Below are positions 3,185 to 53,667 of a stretch of DNA of 64,000 bases, piece by piece (positions within the stretch are counted from its first letter, which is position 1; each line of letters begins with the position of its first letter). The notes beneath the pieces are model-generated. The model made no database searches. It saw only the letters and a list, made by a program, of their open reading frames with translations, and was not told the DNA's origin. Location: NCBI GenBank assembly GCA_007693965.1, contig RECQ01000036.1, forward strand, positions 62,001 to 126,000, read 5' to 3'. The position numbers were made by a program, and so were the translations under genes. The DNA comes from Phycisphaeraceae bacterium (lineage in GTDB: Bacteria > Planctomycetota > Phycisphaerae > Phycisphaerales > UBA1924).

Positions 3185-5116
3185 TTACTTCGGCGAAGTG
3201 CCGCCCGGGACAGGAACATCGGAATCCTCCGGGCGATCATTGCTTCTGGGACGGGCCGCGCCGGGACGCGGGACGATCTGCCCCTGCCGCAGCGACGGCA
3301 GCGACGGCCGATTCGGATCCAGCGCGCCGCTCATCCGCTCGTCGTCCGCATCCTCAGGATCGCTGAACTCGGGCCGCTCCTCCAGCGCAGGATCCGTCGC
3401 CGATCGCAGCAACTCCGCGGCCAGCTTGTCCTGCTCGGCCACGAAGTCGGCGTTGATCGCGCCGTCCTTCCAGATTTCGTGCAAGGCGCCGACGACCTCG
3501 GAGTAGCTCAGGTCCAGCCCCGGCGCCGGGTTCTCCGGCGTCTGCCGGTGGGAGAGGAAGCGGATCAGATCCTTCACTTCCGGACCGATCGTGCCGCGCG
3601 TGCTCCGTCCACTGCGATGATCAAGGTAGTACACACGGATTTCATCTGATGGAGAGTCGGAGGCCAGCATCAGCCGGTCCGACCAGCCCGAGGCCAGCGT
3701 CGGACGCTTCACATCCAGCCCGGAGCCGAAGATCACGATCCGCGGCTCGCCCTGCTGGCTCACATACACCATCGGCTTGGCGGCGGGAATCGTGTCCAGT
3801 GTGAACTTGTTGCCCATCCGACGGCGATCCAGCAGCGGATCGCCACGCTTTGCCAGCGCCTCGTAGGCCGCGATCCGCACTTCGAGCTGATCCACCTCCA
3901 GCAGCTCTCGCAGGGCCAGATTCACCATCGGGTCCGGCCCCATGTCCCCCAGCAGCTCGATCGCGATCGCCCGCAAGAATGAAGGGCCGCCCGTGGCCAG
4001 GTCTTTCAGGTGCGGGGTGACCAGAGCGTCGCCCAGCCGCGCCCCGGCGCGCAGCGCCGCCAGCCTGGGCGCCACCTCGGGATAGTCGTACAGATCGCGG
4101 AGGAAGGGGACGGCCGGGCGCCCGATCGCCTGCAGCCGCCATGAAAGCTCCGTCGCCAGGTCCGGCTGGGATCGCATCTCCTGCGTGTATCGCCGGGCCC
4201 ACTCTTCGGGGAAGCTCGTGTCAACACGCGTCGACATGAGCAGCTCGAGAAACTCCTCGGTGTCGTCGCTGTACCGCGCGGGAACCGAGATCTCGATCTG
4301 CTCGCTGTTCAGGCCCCATGCGGTCTGCCCACGATCCACTGTGGAATCGCTCGGGAACTTGGTGTTGATCGCGGCGACCATCGAGCGGGCCCGCGCGTGC
4401 GAGGGATTGTCCAGCACGAGAATCAACTCGCGTGAACGCGTCACCTCGCCGCCGTTGAGCACGCGCCCGGAGCGACGATTGATGGCGTCCTCACCTGAGC
4501 TGGCCGGATCAGCGAAGGGGTTGATGAAGATGTCGCCCGAGGCCCGCGCCAGCGAGGGTGTGTCCGGACCGCCGGGAAGCGTGAGCCCGCCCCGCATGTC
4601 CGTGGTCCACAGGCGTCCGCCCTCAAGACTGGTGGTGGCCGTGCCCGGCAGCGCGGTGACGAGCACATCGAAGCGCGATCCCGCAGGAGCGCCGGGAGGA
4701 ACCACCGCCTGCACCAGCACCACCGCCGTGTTGGGATCGTCCAGCATCCGCGAGGGGCTGGTCCAGCCCATGCCCACCGATTCCCGTCCCACGCCGCGGC
4801 GGCTCATCTCGCGCTCCAGCACCGACCGGACCGAGGCCGGCACATCCGCCGAGCCCGTTCCGTTCAGCCCGACCACCACGCCGTAGCCGGTGATGAGGAG
4901 CGATTCGGTGCCGCGCAGAAACGACTCGGCCCCGATCGTGCCGCGCAGAATCGCCGGCATGTCCCGCACCACACGGTCGGGCATGCTCGCCCGCTCGCGC
5001 TGCTCAGGACGCTCGGCGCCGCTGCAGCCTCCGGCCGCGACGAACACCACAGTGGCGGCCATCAGCCCGAGCGCCGCCGCCCGGCGCCACACGCTCGATC
5101 TTTGCTGGTGGATCAT
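3185..5116 (-). CDS. FlgI-like (flagellar P-ring family) lipoprotein with a helical-repeat region
   Basis: 643 residues. A hydrophobic signal ends in a lipobox (VAAGGC, Cys31), so it is probably a lipoprotein. Residues about 60-290 resemble the flagellar P-ring protein FlgI: LLITGYGVVVGLNGTG at 73-88, AVVLVQAVVPPGAPAGSRFDV, then a LEGGRLWTTDMRG stretch. Normal FlgI is about 370 residues with a Sec signal. Here an Ala/Leu-rich stretch (about 310-440: WRLQAIGRPAVPFLRDL, AIAIELLGDMG, LEVRIAAYEALAKRG) looks like HEAT repeats. A beta-rich part and a Pro-rich tail follow. No other flagellar gene is in the window, so a role in a non-flagellar periplasmic ring is possible. It starts 18 nt behind the upstream HTH gene. 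Family likeness is fairly sure; function is not. Confidence 0.8.
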   Translation of the reverse strand: MIHQQRSSVWRRAAALGLMAATVVFVAAGGCSGAERPEQRERASMPDRVVRDMPAILRGTIGAESFLRGTESLLITGYGVVVGLNGTGSADVPASVRSVLEREMSRRGVGRESVGMGWTSPSRMLDDPNTAVVLVQAVVPPGAPAGSRFDVLVTALPGTATTSLEGGRLWTTDMRGGLTLPGGPDTPSLARASGDIFINPFADPASSGEDAINRRSGRVLNGGEVTRSRELILVLDNPSHARARSMVAAINTKFPSDSTVDRGQTAWGLNSEQIEISVPARYSDDTEEFLELLMSTRVDTSFPEEWARRYTQEMRSQPDLATELSWRLQAIGRPAVPFLRDLYDYPEVAPRLAALRAGARLGDALVTPHLKDLATGGPSFLRAIAIELLGDMGPDPMVNLALRELLEVDQLEVRIAAYEALAKRGDPLLDRRRMGNKFTLDTIPAAKPMVYVSQQGEPRIVIFGSGLDVKRPTLASGWSDRLMLASDSPSDEIRVYYLDHRSGRSTRGTIGPEVKDLIRFLSHRQTPENPAPGLDLSYSEVVGALHEIWKDGAINADFVAEQDKLAAELLRSATDPALEERPEFSDPEDADDERMSGALDPNRPSLPSLRQGQIVPRPGAARPRSNDRPEDSDVPVPGGTSPK

Positions 5117-8470: not shown

Positions 8471-8637
8471 GGTTGTCTTAAACCTCCATCCGCTTTCTTG
8501 GGAAAGCGATTCCGTTGTTTCTGCGTGCAATGTCGTGACTATACCGGCGCCCCGAAATCCGGTTGTCAAAAAGGCGACGCCATCCCGACCCCTCGGCTCC
8601 GGGGGGCCGGCCCGTTTCGATTCCTCGAAAGGGGATG

Positions 8638-8809
8638 AACGCGGAGTGATACGGAGTTTTTGAGGAAAACGGAGTCAGAGAAGAGAAGAGAAATTTGTGT
8701 GTCTCGGCGCCGAAGCCGCCGAGCAATTCGGCGCTGTCATTCCAAAACCCACACTTCTTCCCCCTGTCCCCACTCCGTCTTCCTCAAAAACTCCGTATCA
8801 CTCCGCGTT
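8638..8809. repeat. Inverted repeat with 38-nt arms
   Basis: Bases 8638-8675 are repeated in inverted orientation at 8772-8809 with one mismatch in 38. The arms are A-rich against the background (core CGGAGTGATACGGAG) and are separated by 96 nt. The element lies in the 450-nt gap between the S9 peptidase start and the VWA gene end. No gene is supportable in that gap. It could be a mobile palindromic element or a large RNA hairpin. Confidence 0.85.
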
Positions 8810-8847
8810 TCTCCCCCTCGTTCTGAGCCGGGGGACCTGCGGGCGCC

Positions 8848-13467: not shown

Positions 13468-14348
13468 TGCATGTCTCCCCGGCGCCAGATGGCGATCTCC
13501 GTCTCGAGTTCGACGCCCGCGCTTTTCAGCACGCGCTCGCGCACCGCGTCAATGAGTTTCAGAATGTCACGGGCCGTGCAGCCCTCGCGCGTGATGAAGA
13601 AGTTGGCGTGGCGGTCCGACACTTCGGCGCCGCCTTCGCGCAGCCCCTTGCATCCGGCCTCGTCGATGAGCTTGCCGGCGCTGGTGCGCTCGCCGTCGAC
13701 GAGCGGGTTGCGGAAGACGCAGCCCGCCGAGTTCTCCTTCATCGGCTGGCTTGTCTTCTTGTAGGCCATCACTTCCTTGAGCCGGTCGCGCAACTTGTCG
13801 GGGTCGCCCTCGGTGAGCCGCAGCTCGACCGCAGCGATGAGATGCCCGTCGAGGCCGCCGGTGCGATATCCGTATTTCAACTCGTCCTTGTAATAGCTGC
13901 GCTGGTTGCGATCAGGATCGAAGGTGTGGACGCGTTCGACCGTCTCGAAGATCTCGCCGAAGGCGCCGCCGGCGTTCATGAACGTGGCGCCGCCGATTGT
14001 CGCGGGGATGCCGCCGAGCCCTTCCAGTCCGCCGAACCCGCGGCGCACCGTCTCGATGATGAGCTTGGGCAGATCGGCGCCGGCCTCGACGCACAGCAGC
14101 CCGCCCTCTTCCAGCTCCAGCACATCGCAGATGTTCTCCAGCGAGATGACCAGGCCGTCGACGCCGCCGTCATCAACAAGAAGATTGGCGCCCTCGCCGA
14201 GGATGCGCACCGGCTCATCGCGCCCGAGCAGTGTGCGCAGCTCCTGGATCGACGCCGGCCGTGCCAGCATGTCGGCGCCGCCCCCGACGCCGAACCAGGT
14301 GAGGATCGGAACATCCGTCTCGATCACGATGGGCGTTGACGTCGTCAC
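13464..14348 (-). CDS. murB: UDP-N-acetylenolpyruvoylglucosamine reductase MurB
   Basis: FAD/NADPH enzyme making UDP-MurNAc in peptidoglycan synthesis. 294 residues, which fits the shorter type II MurB. FAD-binding motifs visible: LTWFGVGGGADML, ILGEGANLLVDDGGVDG and GLGGIPATIGGATFMNAG. The catalytic Ser lies in ENSAGCVFRNP and the C-terminal motif SDRHANFFI is typical. The GTG start at 14346-14348 overlaps the murC stop by 4 nt (GTGA), which indicates translational coupling. Confidence 0.95.
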   Translation of the reverse strand: MTTSTPIVIETDVPILTWFGVGGGADMLARPASIQELRTLLGRDEPVRILGEGANLLVDDGGVDGLVISLENICDVLELEEGGLLCVEAGADLPKLIIETVRRGFGGLEGLGGIPATIGGATFMNAGGAFGEIFETVERVHTFDPDRNQRSYYKDELKYGYRTGGLDGHLIAAVELRLTEGDPDKLRDRLKEVMAYKKTSQPMKENSAGCVFRNPLVDGERTSAGKLIDEAGCKGLREGGAEVSDRHANFFITREGCTARDILKLIDAVRERVLKSAGVELETEIAIWRRGDMQ

Positions 14349-15910
14349 GACCCGATGCCCGATGCCTGATGCCCGATGCCTGCTTCAAGAAAACCGCGCG
14401 CCACCTGCCACACCGGCCCGGCGCCCATCACCACCAGCAGGTCGCCGGGGCGGCAGATGTTCTCGAGCTGCTCGACGATGGCGCCGAAGGGGTAGAGGTG
14501 CATGGCGCGCACGCCGCGCTCGCGCAGACGGTCGACAAGGTCGCCGGCGCTCACCTTCGTCTTCTCGATCTCCGAGTCGCGCACGAAATAGATGTGCGGC
14601 ACGATCACAACGTCCGCCTGCGTGAACGACTGCGCGAATTCCTCCATCAAAAATCGCGTGCGGCTGTGCTGGTGGGGCTGGAAGACGCAGATCAGCCTTC
14701 CGCCCTTCTCCTGCGGCTTCTCGTACTGGCGCAGTGCACGCAGCGTGGCTTCGATCTCGGTGGGGTGGTGGCCGTAATCGTCGTAGACGCGCACCCCGCC
14801 CTTTTCGCCAAGCAACTGCACGCGCCGGTCCACGCCGCGGAAATCGCTGAGGGCCTCGCCGACACGCAGCGGATCGGCGCCGAGTGTGATCGCGAGAGCC
14901 GCGGCGAAGGCGCTGTTCATCGCGTTGTGCTCGCCGGGCTGGCGCATGGTCCACGCCCCAACCGTCTCCCCCGCGTGCTCCAGCTCGACGCGCATCGTCT
15001 CGGGGTCGAAGCTCACGACCCAGTCGGCGCCGGGGGCGAAGCCGATCGTCTCGACAGCGCACTCCAGACCGGCCGTCACCTCGCGCCGGTGGGCGCCCTC
15101 GTGGGAGATGAGCAGCCTGCCGCCGTCGCGCGCGGGCGGGATGAGCGCTGCAAACTCGTGGAACGATTGAATGACCGCATCGAGCGAGCCGTAGATGTCC
15201 AGGTGGTCCGCCTCAACCGCGCTGATCGCGCCCACCACGGGTCGCAGGTTGTGGAACGAGCGGTTGAATTCGCAGGCCTCGCCGATGAGCAGTCCCGGAC
15301 GGCCCTTGAGCGACCCCGCCGGGATCGTCTCGGCGCCGAGGCGGAAACCCGCTGGGGGTCCGGGCCGGCCTTCTGAGAGCTGGGTGCAGACGGCGCCGAC
15401 GATGACCGTCGGATCCAGCCCCGCCCGGGCCAGGGCGACGCCCAGCATGGCGGCGGTGGTCGATTTTCCATGCGTCCCCGCCAGAGCCACACCTGTGCGC
15501 CCCAGCATGCACCGCCCCAGGGCCTCGGCATACGTGAGCGTGGGCGTGCCCCGCGACTGGGCCGCGAGGAGCTGGGGATGATCCGGCTTGACCGCGGCGG
15601 AGGCGATGACGAGATCGCAATCGCGGGGCAGTCCGGCGTCCTCACCCCCCGGGGCGCCGCAGACGACGGGGATCCCCTCATCCGTGAGCCCGTCGGTGAC
15701 GTCGGATCGCTGCATGTCGGCCCCGGAGACGATGGCGCCGCGCCGCGCCAGCATCCGGGCCAGGCCCGACATGCCGCAGCCCCCGATTCCGATCAGGAAA
15801 CACTGCTTCCCGGCGACGTCGAAGCGCTCCCGATCGGGCGCGTCAGAGACACGTCCGGGCGAGGCGTCCGGGTGGGCCGGCGTTGTGGCGCGGGTGGGCG
15901 ACATGGTCAT
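14345..15910 (-). CDS. murC: UDP-N-acetylmuramate--L-alanine ligase MurC
   Basis: Adds L-Ala to UDP-MurNAc. About 521 residues. The Rossmann start has LIGIGGCGMSGLARML. The ATP-binding loop GTHGKSTT is at about 145-152. Central-domain motifs are EACEFNRSFHNL and VEADHLD. The C-terminal domain has DDYGHHPTEIEATL and FQPHQHSRT. The ATG at 15908-15910 (MTMSP) was preferred over a longer frame to 15979; a second ATG two codons on is also possible. The last residues (GIGHQASGIGS) are translated from a tandem 7-mer repeat. It is the first gene of the cell-wall unit. Confidence 0.95.
   Translation of the reverse strand: MTMSPTRATTPAHPDASPGRVSDAPDRERFDVAGKQCFLIGIGGCGMSGLARMLARRGAIVSGADMQRSDVTDGLTDEGIPVVCGAPGGEDAGLPRDCDLVIASAAVKPDHPQLLAAQSRGTPTLTYAEALGRCMLGRTGVALAGTHGKSTTAAMLGVALARAGLDPTVIVGAVCTQLSEGRPGPPAGFRLGAETIPAGSLKGRPGLLIGEACEFNRSFHNLRPVVGAISAVEADHLDIYGSLDAVIQSFHEFAALIPPARDGGRLLISHEGAHRREVTAGLECAVETIGFAPGADWVVSFDPETMRVELEHAGETVGAWTMRQPGEHNAMNSAFAAALAITLGADPLRVGEALSDFRGVDRRVQLLGEKGGVRVYDDYGHHPTEIEATLRALRQYEKPQEKGGRLICVFQPHQHSRTRFLMEEFAQSFTQADVVIVPHIYFVRDSEIEKTKVSAGDLVDRLRERGVRAMHLYPFGAIVEQLENICRPGDLLVVMGAGPVWQVARGFLEAGIGHQASGIGS
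14353..14380. repeat. Four tandem 7-mers CGATGCC / TGATGCC
   Basis: The units CGATGCC, CGATGCC, TGATGCC and CGATGCC lie back to back inside the last codons of murC, just before the murB start. The repeat therefore writes the MurC C-terminal tail. Confidence 0.85.
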
Positions 15911-15980
15911 CTCAGGGTATCGGCGCGACCGGCGGATGGGCGTGAGAGGGTGGAAGCGCGAGCGGGTGATTGTGTGCATC

Positions 15981-16269
15981 AGCGAGCCGGGGCGTCCCGC
16001 CCCGGTGCATTCGAGCAGATTGCACCCACTGTAGACGCCGAGGCTGAGGAGTCTTCGACGAAACCTCGGGAGAGGCGTTCGAACGGCGCATGGGGCGTCG
16101 CCTGATCACAGACACTTCAGTTCGCGCAGCGCGCAATTCGGATCGGGCGTCGCTCCCGAGGCTTCGAGGGCTCAGCCTCGGCGTCTCATCGAGAGCAGAG
16201 GGCTCGAATGCACATTGAGACCTGAGCGTCTGGAGTTGTTTGACTCGGGGCGGGACGCCCCGGCTCGCT
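15981..16269. repeat. Long nested inverted-repeat element of about 290 nt
   Basis: The outer arms 15981-16004 and 16246-16269 are identical over 24 nt in inverted orientation (core GAGCCGGGGCGTCCCGCCCC). Inner pairs follow in order: GTGCATTCGAG at 16005-16015 with CTCGAATGCAC near 16203-16213; GACGCCGAGGCTGA from 16034 with TCAGCCTCGGCGTC near 16172-16187; and CCTCGGGAG from 16064 with CTCCCGAGG near 16153-16163. It fills the gap between the divergent murC and Nudix genes (420 nt with no gene). The outer arm recurs at 35893-35966 and an inner part at 53628-53667. Confidence 0.88.
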
Positions 16270-16329
16270 GGGCCATGTACGTATGAGAAACACTCACCCA
16301 CGATCCGCTGATCCCCTATCGTGTCCGCC

Positions 16330-16827
16330 ATGGCCGATCGCCCCTTGCCCTACACCATCGCCGTGCTCTGCGACCTGCGCGATCGCGACGGTCGCGTGCT
16401 GCTCATCCGAAGGGCCAAGGAGCCCAACCTCGGCATGTGCTCGATGATCGGCGGCAAGCTCGACACCGCCGCTGGCGAGAGTCCGGCCCAGTGCGCCCGG
16501 CGCGAGATCATGGAAGAAGCGGACATCGACATCCCACTTGAACGGCTGCGGCTGGTGGGCATGGTCAGTGAGCAGGCCTACCTGGGCATCGGGCACTGGC
16601 TCATGTTCATCTACAGCGTGGACGGGCCCGTCGAGGTCCAGCCTCGCGTGATCCGCGAAGGTCGCCTGGAGTGGCACGCGCCCGAGGAGCTCGATTCGCT
16701 GCCCCAGCCTGAGACCGATCGAAAGGTGATCTGGCCCCTGCTCAGGGAGATGCAGGGCCGCTTCTTCTCGGTGCATATTGATTGCACAAATGAGGAGATG
16801 ACCTGGCGGGTCGAGCAGGCGGAATGA
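16330..16827 (+). CDS. Nudix hydrolase
   Basis: About 165 residues. Nudix enzymes cleave nucleoside diphosphates linked to another group, often for housecleaning. The Nudix box is GGKLDTAAGESPAQCARREI followed by MEEADI. The E-x7-REUxEE core is intact. The loop after GGK is two residues longer than usual and Asp replaces the usual Gly near the end. The exact substrate cannot be read from the sequence. The ATG at 16330 is used; a GTG at 16321 is in frame. It is a single gene ahead of the AraC regulator, with no overlap. Confidence 0.88.
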   Translation: MADRPLPYTIAVLCDLRDRDGRVLLIRRAKEPNLGMCSMIGGKLDTAAGESPAQCARREIMEEADIDIPLERLRLVGMVSEQAYLGIGHWLMFIYSVDGPVEVQPRVIREGRLEWHAPEELDSLPQPETDRKVIWPLLREMQGRFFSVHIDCTNEEMTWRVEQAE

Positions 16828-23544: not shown

Positions 23545-23578
23545 TTGTCAGCCACCCATCTTCAGAGGAGAAGAACCC

Positions 23579-25887: not shown

Positions 25888-26559
25888 ATGAGATCACTGA
25901 CAAGCATCGCGGCGATCGCCGCGGGCGTGAGCATTGCCTTCGCCGGCAGCGCCATGGCCACAGACCAGACTGGCAAGATCGCGTTCTGGGCTCAGAACGA
26001 CAACGCGCTTCCCGGCGGCGGCTTCGGCTTCGTCGAGGGTGACTTCCCGCAGGCCGCCGACAACGGCGATGGCAACGGCTTCCTCACCACCACCTTCCCC
26101 ATCAACAACATTCGGAGCTTCGCCGGCACCAACCTCGGATGGCCCAGCGAGGGCAAGGGCGATCCCACTTCCGGCGGCTCGATCGCCTTCGAGAACCAGG
26201 CCAACAACGGCCAGACCTTCACCCTCAACTTCGACGCTTCTCAGTACCTGAGCGTCAACCTGAGCTTCGCCGCCCAGCGCACATCCACCGGATTCAACAA
26301 CATCGACATTGTCGGCGGAGCTGACAGCTACCTCGGCAACACCTGGCCCTCCAGCTTTGCCGTGTTCAGCTTCGACTTCGATTCGCTTGCTGGCAACTCG
26401 AACGCCTCGATCACTTTCACACTCGACGGCGCCACCAGCTCCTCCGGCAACAACCGCTACGACAACATCCTGCTCACCGGCAAGGTCATCCCGACCCCCG
26501 GCGCCGTGGCCCTCTTCGGCCTCGCCGGCGTCGCCGGCCTCCGCCGCCGTCGCGCCTGA
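25888..26559 (+). CDS. Exosortase-type (PEP-CTERM-like) secreted protein
   Basis: 223 residues. The signal peptide is IAAIAAGVSIAFAGSAMA. The mature domain is Gly/Asn/Phe-rich (NIRSFAGTNLGWPSEGKG, LNFDASQYLSVNLSFAAQRT) and looks like a beta sandwich. The tail IPTPGAVALFGLAGVAG plus LRRRRA is the sorting signal. The start is set by AGGAGG at 25872-25877, 10 nt before the ATG. The tail and 3' flank closely match those of the gene at 27079, including the terminator, so the two share a duplicated 3' module. Function beyond surface location is unknown. Confidence 0.85.
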   Translation: MRSLTSIAAIAAGVSIAFAGSAMATDQTGKIAFWAQNDNALPGGGFGFVEGDFPQAADNGDGNGFLTTTFPINNIRSFAGTNLGWPSEGKGDPTSGGSIAFENQANNGQTFTLNFDASQYLSVNLSFAAQRTSTGFNNIDIVGGADSYLGNTWPSSFAVFSFDFDSLAGNSNASITFTLDGATSSSGNNRYDNILLTGKVIPTPGAVALFGLAGVAGLRRRRA

Positions 26560-26603
26560 TTCAGAATCGATCACACCTGATCGAGACATGACAGCGAATC
26601 CAT

Positions 26604-26643
26604 ACGGGCCCGTCGGTTGCGCGACGGGCCCGTTCTTTTTTTT
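26604..26643 (+). terminator. Intrinsic terminator of the substrate gene at 25888
   Basis: A 12-bp stem ACGGGCCCGTCG/CGACGGGCCCGT with a 6-nt loop GTTGCG is followed by TCTTTTTTTT. It is nearly identical to the terminator at 27920-27957. Confidence 0.92.
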
Positions 26644-27078: not shown

Positions 27079-27879
27079 ATGAAGCTTCAGTACATCGGTC
27101 TGTCTGTTATTGCGTTGATCGGCGTCTCGGGCGTCGCCAGCGCCGACTTCGGAACGAACACCCTCAGCACCTTCGCGGACAACGCCAACGGCGGCGACGG
27201 TCTTCCGATCGCCGACCAGACACTGGGTTCGGGCATCACGGCCCAGTTCCGCTCCGGAGGCATCGTCGCCCCCACCTCCGGCACGCGGTTCCTGAATGCG
27301 CAGAACACGGGCAGCAGCTTCGACTCATGGGCCGCGATTCGCTGGGATCTGAGCGATCTTTACGCAGCCATCAACGCCGAGGTCGCCGGCAAGCCGGGCG
27401 CCACCGGCGCGGTCATCAAGAGCGTCGAGCTTGGCCTCTACCAGAGCCCATTCAGCGCCTCCTCGCAGTCGACGTTCGGCATCCACTACATCGAGGACGA
27501 CTCGACCGATTTCGACCCGCAGAATGTCGCCGGCCAGTTCGGCGCCTTTGGTGGTCCGACCATCGACTTCAGCTTCTTCACCGGCGGCAATTCCTTCGTA
27601 ACCACCGGTTTCTTTGACAACGTCGGTCCCGTCGGCGCTCGCGACGCCTTTGACATCGGCTCATCCGATGTTATCGCCGACCTCAACGACTTCAGCGACA
27701 ACTTCCTGACACTCGCTCTCCAGGCCGCGTCCGGCAACGCTTCGTACGGTGGCTCTTCACCCTTCGGTGAGCGCTTTTCCCCTGAATTGAAGGTCACCTA
27801 CAACATCATTCCCACCCCCGGCGCCGCCGCTCTGTTCGGCCTCGCCGGCCTCGTCGGCCTCCGTCGCCGTCGCGCCTGA
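27079..27879 (+). CDS. Exosortase-type (PEP-CTERM-like) secreted protein with a DNRLRE/TGF-propeptide-like body
   Basis: 266 residues. The signal peptide is YIGLSVIALIGVSGVASA. The mature part (TFADNANGGDGLPIADQTLG, SWAAIRWDLSDLYAAINAEV, IKSVELGLYQ) resembles beta-sandwich domains seen in planctomycete surface proteins. The tail IPTPGAAALFGLAGLVG plus LRRRRA is almost the same as in the gene at 25888. The start is fixed by AGGAGG at 27063-27068, 10 nt before the ATG. A strong terminator follows at 27920. Likely exported and processed by the exosortase at 58.5 kb. Confidence 0.83.
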   Translation: MKLQYIGLSVIALIGVSGVASADFGTNTLSTFADNANGGDGLPIADQTLGSGITAQFRSGGIVAPTSGTRFLNAQNTGSSFDSWAAIRWDLSDLYAAINAEVAGKPGATGAVIKSVELGLYQSPFSASSQSTFGIHYIEDDSTDFDPQNVAGQFGAFGGPTIDFSFFTGGNSFVTTGFFDNVGPVGARDAFDIGSSDVIADLNDFSDNFLTLALQAASGNASYGGSSPFGERFSPELKVTYNIIPTPGAAALFGLAGLVGLRRRRA

Positions 27880-27919
27880 TCTGAATCGATCCCCGATCGA
27901 GACTTGACAGCGAATCCAC

Positions 27920-27957
27920 ACGGGCCCGTCGGTTGCGCGACGGGCCCGTTCTTTTTT
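27920..27957 (+). terminator. Intrinsic terminator of the substrate gene at 27079
   Basis: Same 12-bp stem and GTTGCG loop as at 26604, followed by TTCTTTTTT. The HD-GYP gene on the other strand stops 8 nt beyond it, so it also insulates the convergent pair. Confidence 0.92.
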
Positions 27958-35875: not shown

Positions 35876-35892
35876 GACGCGTTCCTGTCTAC

Positions 35893-35966
35893 GCGAGCCG
35901 GGGCGTCCCGCCCCGAGTAGGAATTTTCAAATATTCAAGTTCTCGGGGCGGGACGCCCCGGCTCGC
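35893..35966. repeat. Perfect inverted repeat with 25-nt arms
   Basis: The arms 35893-35917 and 35942-35966 are exact inverted copies (core GAGCCGGGGCGTCCCGCCCC). They are separated by a 24-nt AT-rich loop (GAATTTTCAAATATTCAAG). The arm is the same sequence as the outer arm of the large element at 15981-16269. It ends 4 nt before the aminotransferase stop codon, so it may double as that gene's terminator. Confidence 0.93.
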
Positions 35967-35970
35967 GGGT

Positions 35971-53627: not shown

Positions 53628-53667
53628 CTTCCGAGGCTTCGTCGAAGACTCCTCAGCCTCGGCGTCT
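53628..53667. repeat. Solo copy of the inner part of the 16-kb repeat element
   Basis: The 40 nt match the reverse complement of 16033-16072 at 38 of 40 positions (core CGAAGACTCCTCAGCCTCGG). This shows that pieces of the large element are dispersed. Confidence 0.88.

Follow-up and report, generated by a model that had tools for sequence, protein, structure and literature searches.

Why should the interval between two divergently transcribed genes, murC and a Nudix gene, hold almost 300 nucleotides of nested inverted repeats in a Phycisphaeraceae bacterium, and is the working form of such a structure a folded transcript or folded DNA? We studied this question in a stretch of 64,000 nucleotides (NCBI GenBank assembly GCA_007693965.1, contig RECQ01000036.1, positions 62,001 to 126,000), which is called the window hereafter, in the 3.48-Mb draft genome to which it belongs, and in genomes of relatives. 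REP/RAYT pairs clearly exemplify how a domesticated single-strand transposase can live together with its own non-autonomous elements. To our knowledge, the pairs studied at the bench are proteobacterial and GTAG-tagged. Our analysis adds two further REP/RAYT pairs with other heads, in Planctomycetota, and we are highly confident that positions 15980-16270 of the window represent a REPIN/BIME-type non-autonomous mosaic, with a pair of one hairpin (REP-B) inside a pair of another (REP-A), presumably spread by two RAYT-like single-strand transposases.

Architecture of the nested element

Both neighbours and their divergent orientation, as named in the first-pass annotation, were confirmed by matches to TIGR01082 and PF00293 (Table 1). 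Word comparison of 15980-16270 returned four exact inverted arm pairs, nested in order, of 25, 12, 16 and 9 nt, where 24, 11, 14 and 9 nt had been proposed. The outer two pairs are given in Table 1; the 16-nt pair comprises 16033-16048 and 16171-16186, and the 9-nt pair 16064-16072 and 16153-16161. The element has a length of 291 nt and reads A> B(long)> <B(short) <A, i.e. it is a mosaic of two dispersed palindromes. Its flanks had been described as diverging by small deletions; a divergence does exist, and it is seen as a stretch of 32 nt that separates the first two arms and as a loop difference of 6 nt.

The RNA fold of 15960-16290 reached -194.7 kcal/mol, compared to -140.9 +/- 4.6 for shuffled sequences (z = -11.67; 0 of 100 shuffles were as good). 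This very stable fold, together with the location in a divergent promoter interval, immediately in front of two genes, would suit a cis-regulatory RNA, attenuator or terminator that acts as a long transcribed hairpin in the leader of murC or Nudix. However, no Rfam match and no terminator-like or promoter-like site was found at the element; hence, the single long hairpin proposed earlier gains support as a fold but not as a folded transcript, a reading that the data do not require. Considering also the evidence from the other copies and from relatives presented below, we regard a regulatory RNA as very unlikely.

Table 1. Features of the murC/Nudix interval and related repeats in the window (strand "." denotes unstranded features).
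Feature	Position	Strand	Remarks
murC, left neighbour	14345..15979	-	MurC TIGR01082, 346 bits; actual start possibly 24 codons into the ORF
REP-A, left outer arm	15980..16004	+	25-nt arm, pairs with 16246-16270; head GCGAGC at 15982, hairpin core 15988-16004
12-nt arm between A and B	16005..16016	.	pairs with 16202-16213
REP-B, long-loop type	16033..16069	+	slightly decayed; GAAA for GAAG gives a C.A mismatch
REP-B, short-loop type	16156..16186	-	stem intact
12-nt arm	16202..16213	.	pairs with 16005-16016
REP-A, right outer arm	16246..16270	-	25-nt arm; hairpin core 16246-16262
Nudix gene, right neighbour	16321..16827	+	NUDIX PF00293, 65.6 bits
A-A' inverted pair (REPIN)	35892..35967	.	24-nt spacer, without B
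Single REP-B, long-loop type	53631..53667	-

Two dispersed hairpin families in the genome

REP-A and REP-B are multi-copy, mostly intergenic hairpins with fixed 5' heads. REP-A consists of GCGAGC followed by CGGGGCG-TCC-CGCCCCG, and the head was present in all 36 distinct copies read. REP-B consists of AGACG followed by CCGAGGCT-GA...GA-AGCCTCGG; an A precedes the GACG head in 83/83 contexts read, among which 35 loops were long and 47 short. Copies were counted in the draft genome by pattern searches, and contexts were read from the stretches around the matches. The outer 17-mer of REP-A occurs 39 times at <=1 mismatch and the inner 15-mer of REP-B 122 times, each against a single match of the reversed-pattern control. 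Both modules are therefore multi-copy rather than unique, and the term "modular dispersed element" of the first-pass annotation is borne out. The two recurrences within the window are also real: the outer one, placed at 35893-35966, is an inverted pair of the outer arm, and the inner one, placed at 53628-53667, is a minus-strand copy (Table 1).

The copies are arranged in several ways. Neighbouring B copies form 30 inverted and 9 tandem pairs, the inverted ones being long/short heterodimers in 23 of 29 cases (p = 0.0008) and the tandem ones mostly short/short. Of the 39 A copies, 17 have a B copy no more than 300 bp away (chance approximately 2%), and A-A', A-B-A and A-B-B'-A' units were all found. 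A-B-A units recur on contigs C12, C14, C24 and C59, and the B'-spacer-A' half can be aligned between six places. Hence, the nest belongs to a recurrent composite kind and is not a single accident. The perfect 25-nt inverted ends and the length of 291 nt also resemble a classical MITE moved by a double-strand (DDE) transposase, but a target duplication is not visible at the element ends, single (10 A, 28 B), tandem and mixed copies exist, and the same repeats flank Y1 genes, so that this explanation appears most improbable.

According to a rough gene caller, 58 of 67 classified B copies and 17 of 19 classified A copies are situated outside called genes, with the remainder mostly near ORF starts; most B copies lie between co-directional or convergent genes, the window element being among the few in a divergent interval. 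The A and B modules adjoin many unrelated genes, which argues against a leader RNA specific for murC or Nudix.

Two side observations concern the arrangement of copies. Seven B copies, all oriented alike, follow one another in tandem with a period of exactly 57 nt on contig C25 (G000:C25:56122-56478, G000 being the genome of the window), whereas inverted pairs are the rule. A copies often have, on their outer side, an extra conserved module, TTCGTACA, which precedes tandem repeats of the GGTGAGCGGGTGAG type (loci L056:1456-1500, L064, L068, L079 and other A flanks).

Partner Y1 transposase genes

We found five Y1-type transposase genes in the genome. The gene that we call RAYT-B (C3:23705-24268, 188 aa) is flanked by B copies at 23572, 23657, 24370 and 24539, and RAYT-A (C25:3563-4114, 184 aa) by A copies at 3537, 4146 and 4190; both genes are single-copy. 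Since each REP family flanks its own, different transposase gene, two REPtrons are present. The Y1 genes on C35, C19 and C65 were rejected as partners because no A or B copies occur in their flanks. The one on C65 (G000:C65:47932-48174, L034) is RAYT-like, with 92 bits to the NCBIfam family NF047646 of REP-associated tyrosine transposases.

RAYT-A matches Pfam Y1_Tnp (PF01797) with 26.7 bits, above the cut-off of 23, and RAYT-B with 20.6 bits, just under it; among the 16 aligned RAYT-B orthologues, 12 match Y1_Tnp at E<=0.1. Both proteins score below the cut-off of 80 bits of NF047646 (RAYT-B 12.8, RAYT-A 22.5). A search of PDB sequences with a RAYT-B profile gave weak matches (E 0.08-0.41), seven of eight to transposases and one of these to that of ISHp608, while the RAYT-A profile gave nothing meaningful. 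The two His of the HxH motif and the Tyr are invariant in both alignments. RAYT-B is characterized by the motifs THVH and YIxxH, RAYT-A by DHVH or NHVH and Y[IV]xxQ. The residue four positions after the tyrosine (Tyr+4), for which the motif table of PMC6006769 lists Gln for TnpA of IS200 and Asn for TnpA-REP, is thus Gln in RAYT-A, Q172 after Y168, and His in RAYT-B, H157 after Y153. This His is invariant in the 16 sequences of the family alignment, and in a second collection described below it was found at 54 of 69 readable loci, with Gln at 10.

Conservation of hairpins and transposases across genomes

For A and for B, the association of hairpin and transposase is maintained from genus to genus. 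Each of the six close RAYT-A genes, among them that of the window's genome, is flanked by CGAGCCGGGnCG...CGnCCCG hairpins or a near variant, and compensated changes occur at the free position (GTC/GAC in relative G008, GCC/GGC in G079). A-type hairpins number 47 in the window's genome and 78, 32 and 14 in G142, G137 and G040, with controls near zero. By tblastn, the gene upstream of RAYT-A is shared by five of the six genera and the one downstream by four. Such shared neighbours suggest vertical inheritance of RAYT-A and not the behaviour of an active IS.

In the family, 16 further genomes encode strong RAYT-B orthologues (40-59% identity). In 14 of these 16, as in the window's own genome, RAYT-B is bordered by hairpins built as (stem 8)-GA-S ... 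S'-GA-(stem 8'), the stem being particular to each species. Since this variation makes a plain family-wide count of the 15-mer too coarse, a structural pattern was used instead. At least five copies of this pattern were detected in 14 of 17 genomes with strong RAYT-B compared to 12 of 133 without (150 family genomes). The presence of B hairpins hence tracks RAYT-B (Fisher p = 3e-10, controls near zero, genomes being counted irrespective of kinship). Many B-type hairpins nevertheless exist in genomes without a strong RAYT-B match (156 in G008, 135 in G077, 60 in G142, 54 in G011), where orphan REPs after loss, a diverged enzyme or assembly gaps are possible.

In a second collection, which overlaps in part with the family collection, a scan with one RAYT-B protein as query gave no matches, while an alignment-based scan gave 80 named relatives. 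Their labels name Planctomycetota lineages in all but four cases (two Vicinamibacteraceae, one Cyanobacteria, one "bacterium"), which are possibly mis-binned. G.A-marked hairpins lie beside the RAYT-B gene in 40 of the 80 relatives and were not found beside it in the other 40. Close to the gene their density is 2.24 per kb, compared to 0.074 per kb in the distal flanks of these loci, and GA/GA is the only enriched non-Watson-Crick inner dinucleotide pair, TC/TC being the same site on the other strand. For the analysis of covariation, hairpins were collected with anchors that leave five stem pairs free, in order to avoid selecting for pairing. Watson-Crick pairs occupied 120 of 135 free stem cells, compared to a mean of 60.6 and a maximum of 82 in 2000 permutations, with three or more pair types at each free position. 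B stems hence differ between species while pairing is kept around a conserved tandem G.A mismatch. The co-variation of arms anticipated in the first-pass annotation takes the form of compensatory stem changes at the level of species, not of copies within one genome. Moreover, the covariation is tied to the flanking transposase gene and not to any neighbour gene, which again speaks against a regulatory RNA.

These data also bear on the view that the REPs are relics, which spread long ago and are now kept mainly for a host role, such as at mRNA ends or in DNA topology, the RAYT genes being retained for some other function. This view would agree with the single-copy state of RAYT-A and its synteny in five of six genera, as expected of a domesticated gene, with the prevalence of REPs between co-directional or convergent genes, and with their persistence where RAYT-B was not found. 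Relics alone, however, leave the species-by-species match of REP stem and flanking RAYT unexplained. We therefore consider this view unlikely as the main explanation, albeit the least unlikely of the alternatives, and it is compatible with REPINs spread by RAYTs.

The murC/Nudix interval in relatives

Four relatives have the divergent murC/Nudix pair with approximately 100-190 nt between equivalent residues, compared to approximately 420 in the window, and A or B modules were not seen in their interval. This empty-site comparison is one between genera, not strains. Since the difference corresponds roughly to the length of the element and the modules are absent in the relatives, the element at 15980-16270 would most simply be an insertion. 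That relatives manage the same gene pair without it is a further point against a leader RNA, and any effect on the expression of murC or Nudix would be a by-product of the presence of the mosaic.

In a relative (G003, L139:415-1515), a different RAYT-like gene (HVH, YIHANP) lies between murC and Nudix, with palindromes of its own (GGGTGCCACGGGCGAGCTCGGTCGCCCGTGCC and others) on its flanks. The interval has thus received REP-type elements at least twice.

Relation to known systems

The type of system is already known. Similar to REP/BIME and TnpA-REP of E. coli, the REPtron (PMC8266576, PMC6006769), we found a fixed 5' head, a mid-stem mismatch, intergenic copies, alternating long and short variants in inverted pairs, and a single Y1 gene flanked by its own REPs. 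TnpA-REP of E. coli cuts single-stranded REP using the 5' tetranucleotide and the mid-stem mismatches, and alternating REP variants are known from its BIMEs (PMC8266576). There are also differences. The heads are GACG (B) and GCGAGC (A) instead of GTAG, which places neither family in the GTAG REP superfamily with its 5' GTAG or GTGG tag; the mismatch of B is a tandem G.A, at a similar place in the stem as the AA/GC mismatch of E. coli; Tyr+4 is His or Gln instead of Asn; and two REP systems are nested in one element. TnpA of IS200/IS605 (IS608, ISDra2) shares the Y1/HUH core, but no multi-copy IS carrying the gene is present here and the flanks are dispersed REPs.

Atypical hairpins have been described for class 3 TnpA-Y1 in Planctomycetes, Acidobacteria and Proteobacteria (PMC6006769). 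Compared by motif alone, RAYT-A fits class 3 (Quentin 2018) in part and RAYT-B does not. RAYT-A resembles it in length (184 vs 178 aa), HVH, Tyr...Gln, a non-GTAG foot and the same phylum, and most RAYT-A orthologues have W-A where class 3 has W[TA]. The motifs of class 3 are NHVH, YV[VI][AENY]EQ and the foot CnGA, whereas RAYT-A has the motifs given above and the foot GCGAGC. RAYT-B is further away, and its tyrosine motif corresponds to none of those that Quentin et al. give for their twelve subclasses (PMC6006769). CGTC-tagged REPs (PMC3733652) seemed promising for B, which ends in CGTC on the other strand and forms predominantly inverted dimers. They are reported from several phyla, with a stem beginning with A-T pairs, loops of 4-5 nt and, it is said, without a flanking transposase (PMC3733652). 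B, in contrast, begins with CC/GG on the far side of the tag and has two loop classes, the G.A step and a flanking transposase; tag polarity, stem start, varying loops and the transposase thus rule out this identity.

Hence, both hairpin kinds and RAYT-B match no described class that we found in the open-access literature, where an earlier description elsewhere is possible. New are the non-GTAG heads, the G.A-marked REP family across Planctomycetota, the RAYT type with His at Tyr+4, and the chimaeric two-system units.

Proposed mechanism and implications

Because two REP families are each tied to a Y1 gene, folded single-stranded DNA is the likelier working form than a transcript. By analogy with TnpA-REP of E. 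coli, we infer that RAYT-A and RAYT-B would each bind their own hairpin as single-stranded DNA, with the 5' head read as a guide and, in the case of B, the tandem G.A mismatch as a mark. Cutting and rejoining beside the hairpin would then proceed via the transposase tyrosine, by which REP pairs could spread into intergenic DNA. The nest may have originated when B copies came to lie between A ends, and the resulting A-B-A units would subsequently have been copied as units, with B travelling along with the A ends.

With less confidence, and only leaning to one side, we favour a more specific proposal: that RAYT-B represents a hitherto undescribed, phylum-wide Y1 subclass of Planctomycetota, in which the His at Tyr+4 likely serves as third metal ligand and which recognises the tandem G.A in a freely covarying stem, and that in this lineage two unrelated REP/RAYT systems have joined to form composite units, with B inside A pairs, which are propagated jointly. 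The recognition feature of B can be read from the covariation, as the stem sequence is free while pairing and the tandem G.A are kept, which yields a sharp biochemical prediction. Furthermore, judging from the nested A-B-A units, larger elements can apparently arise by combination of separate REP systems. A warning also follows, namely that a strong nested inverted repeat in front of a gene such as murC is not necessarily a regulatory RNA.

Other repeats in the window

An inverted repeat at 8631-8816, with 70-nt arms that are 79% complementary and 46 nt apart, is unrelated to A or B. At 26474-26641 and 27794-27957, two gene ends approximately 1.3 kb apart share a 3' coding end with 85% identity and a terminator-like palindrome with 95% identity.
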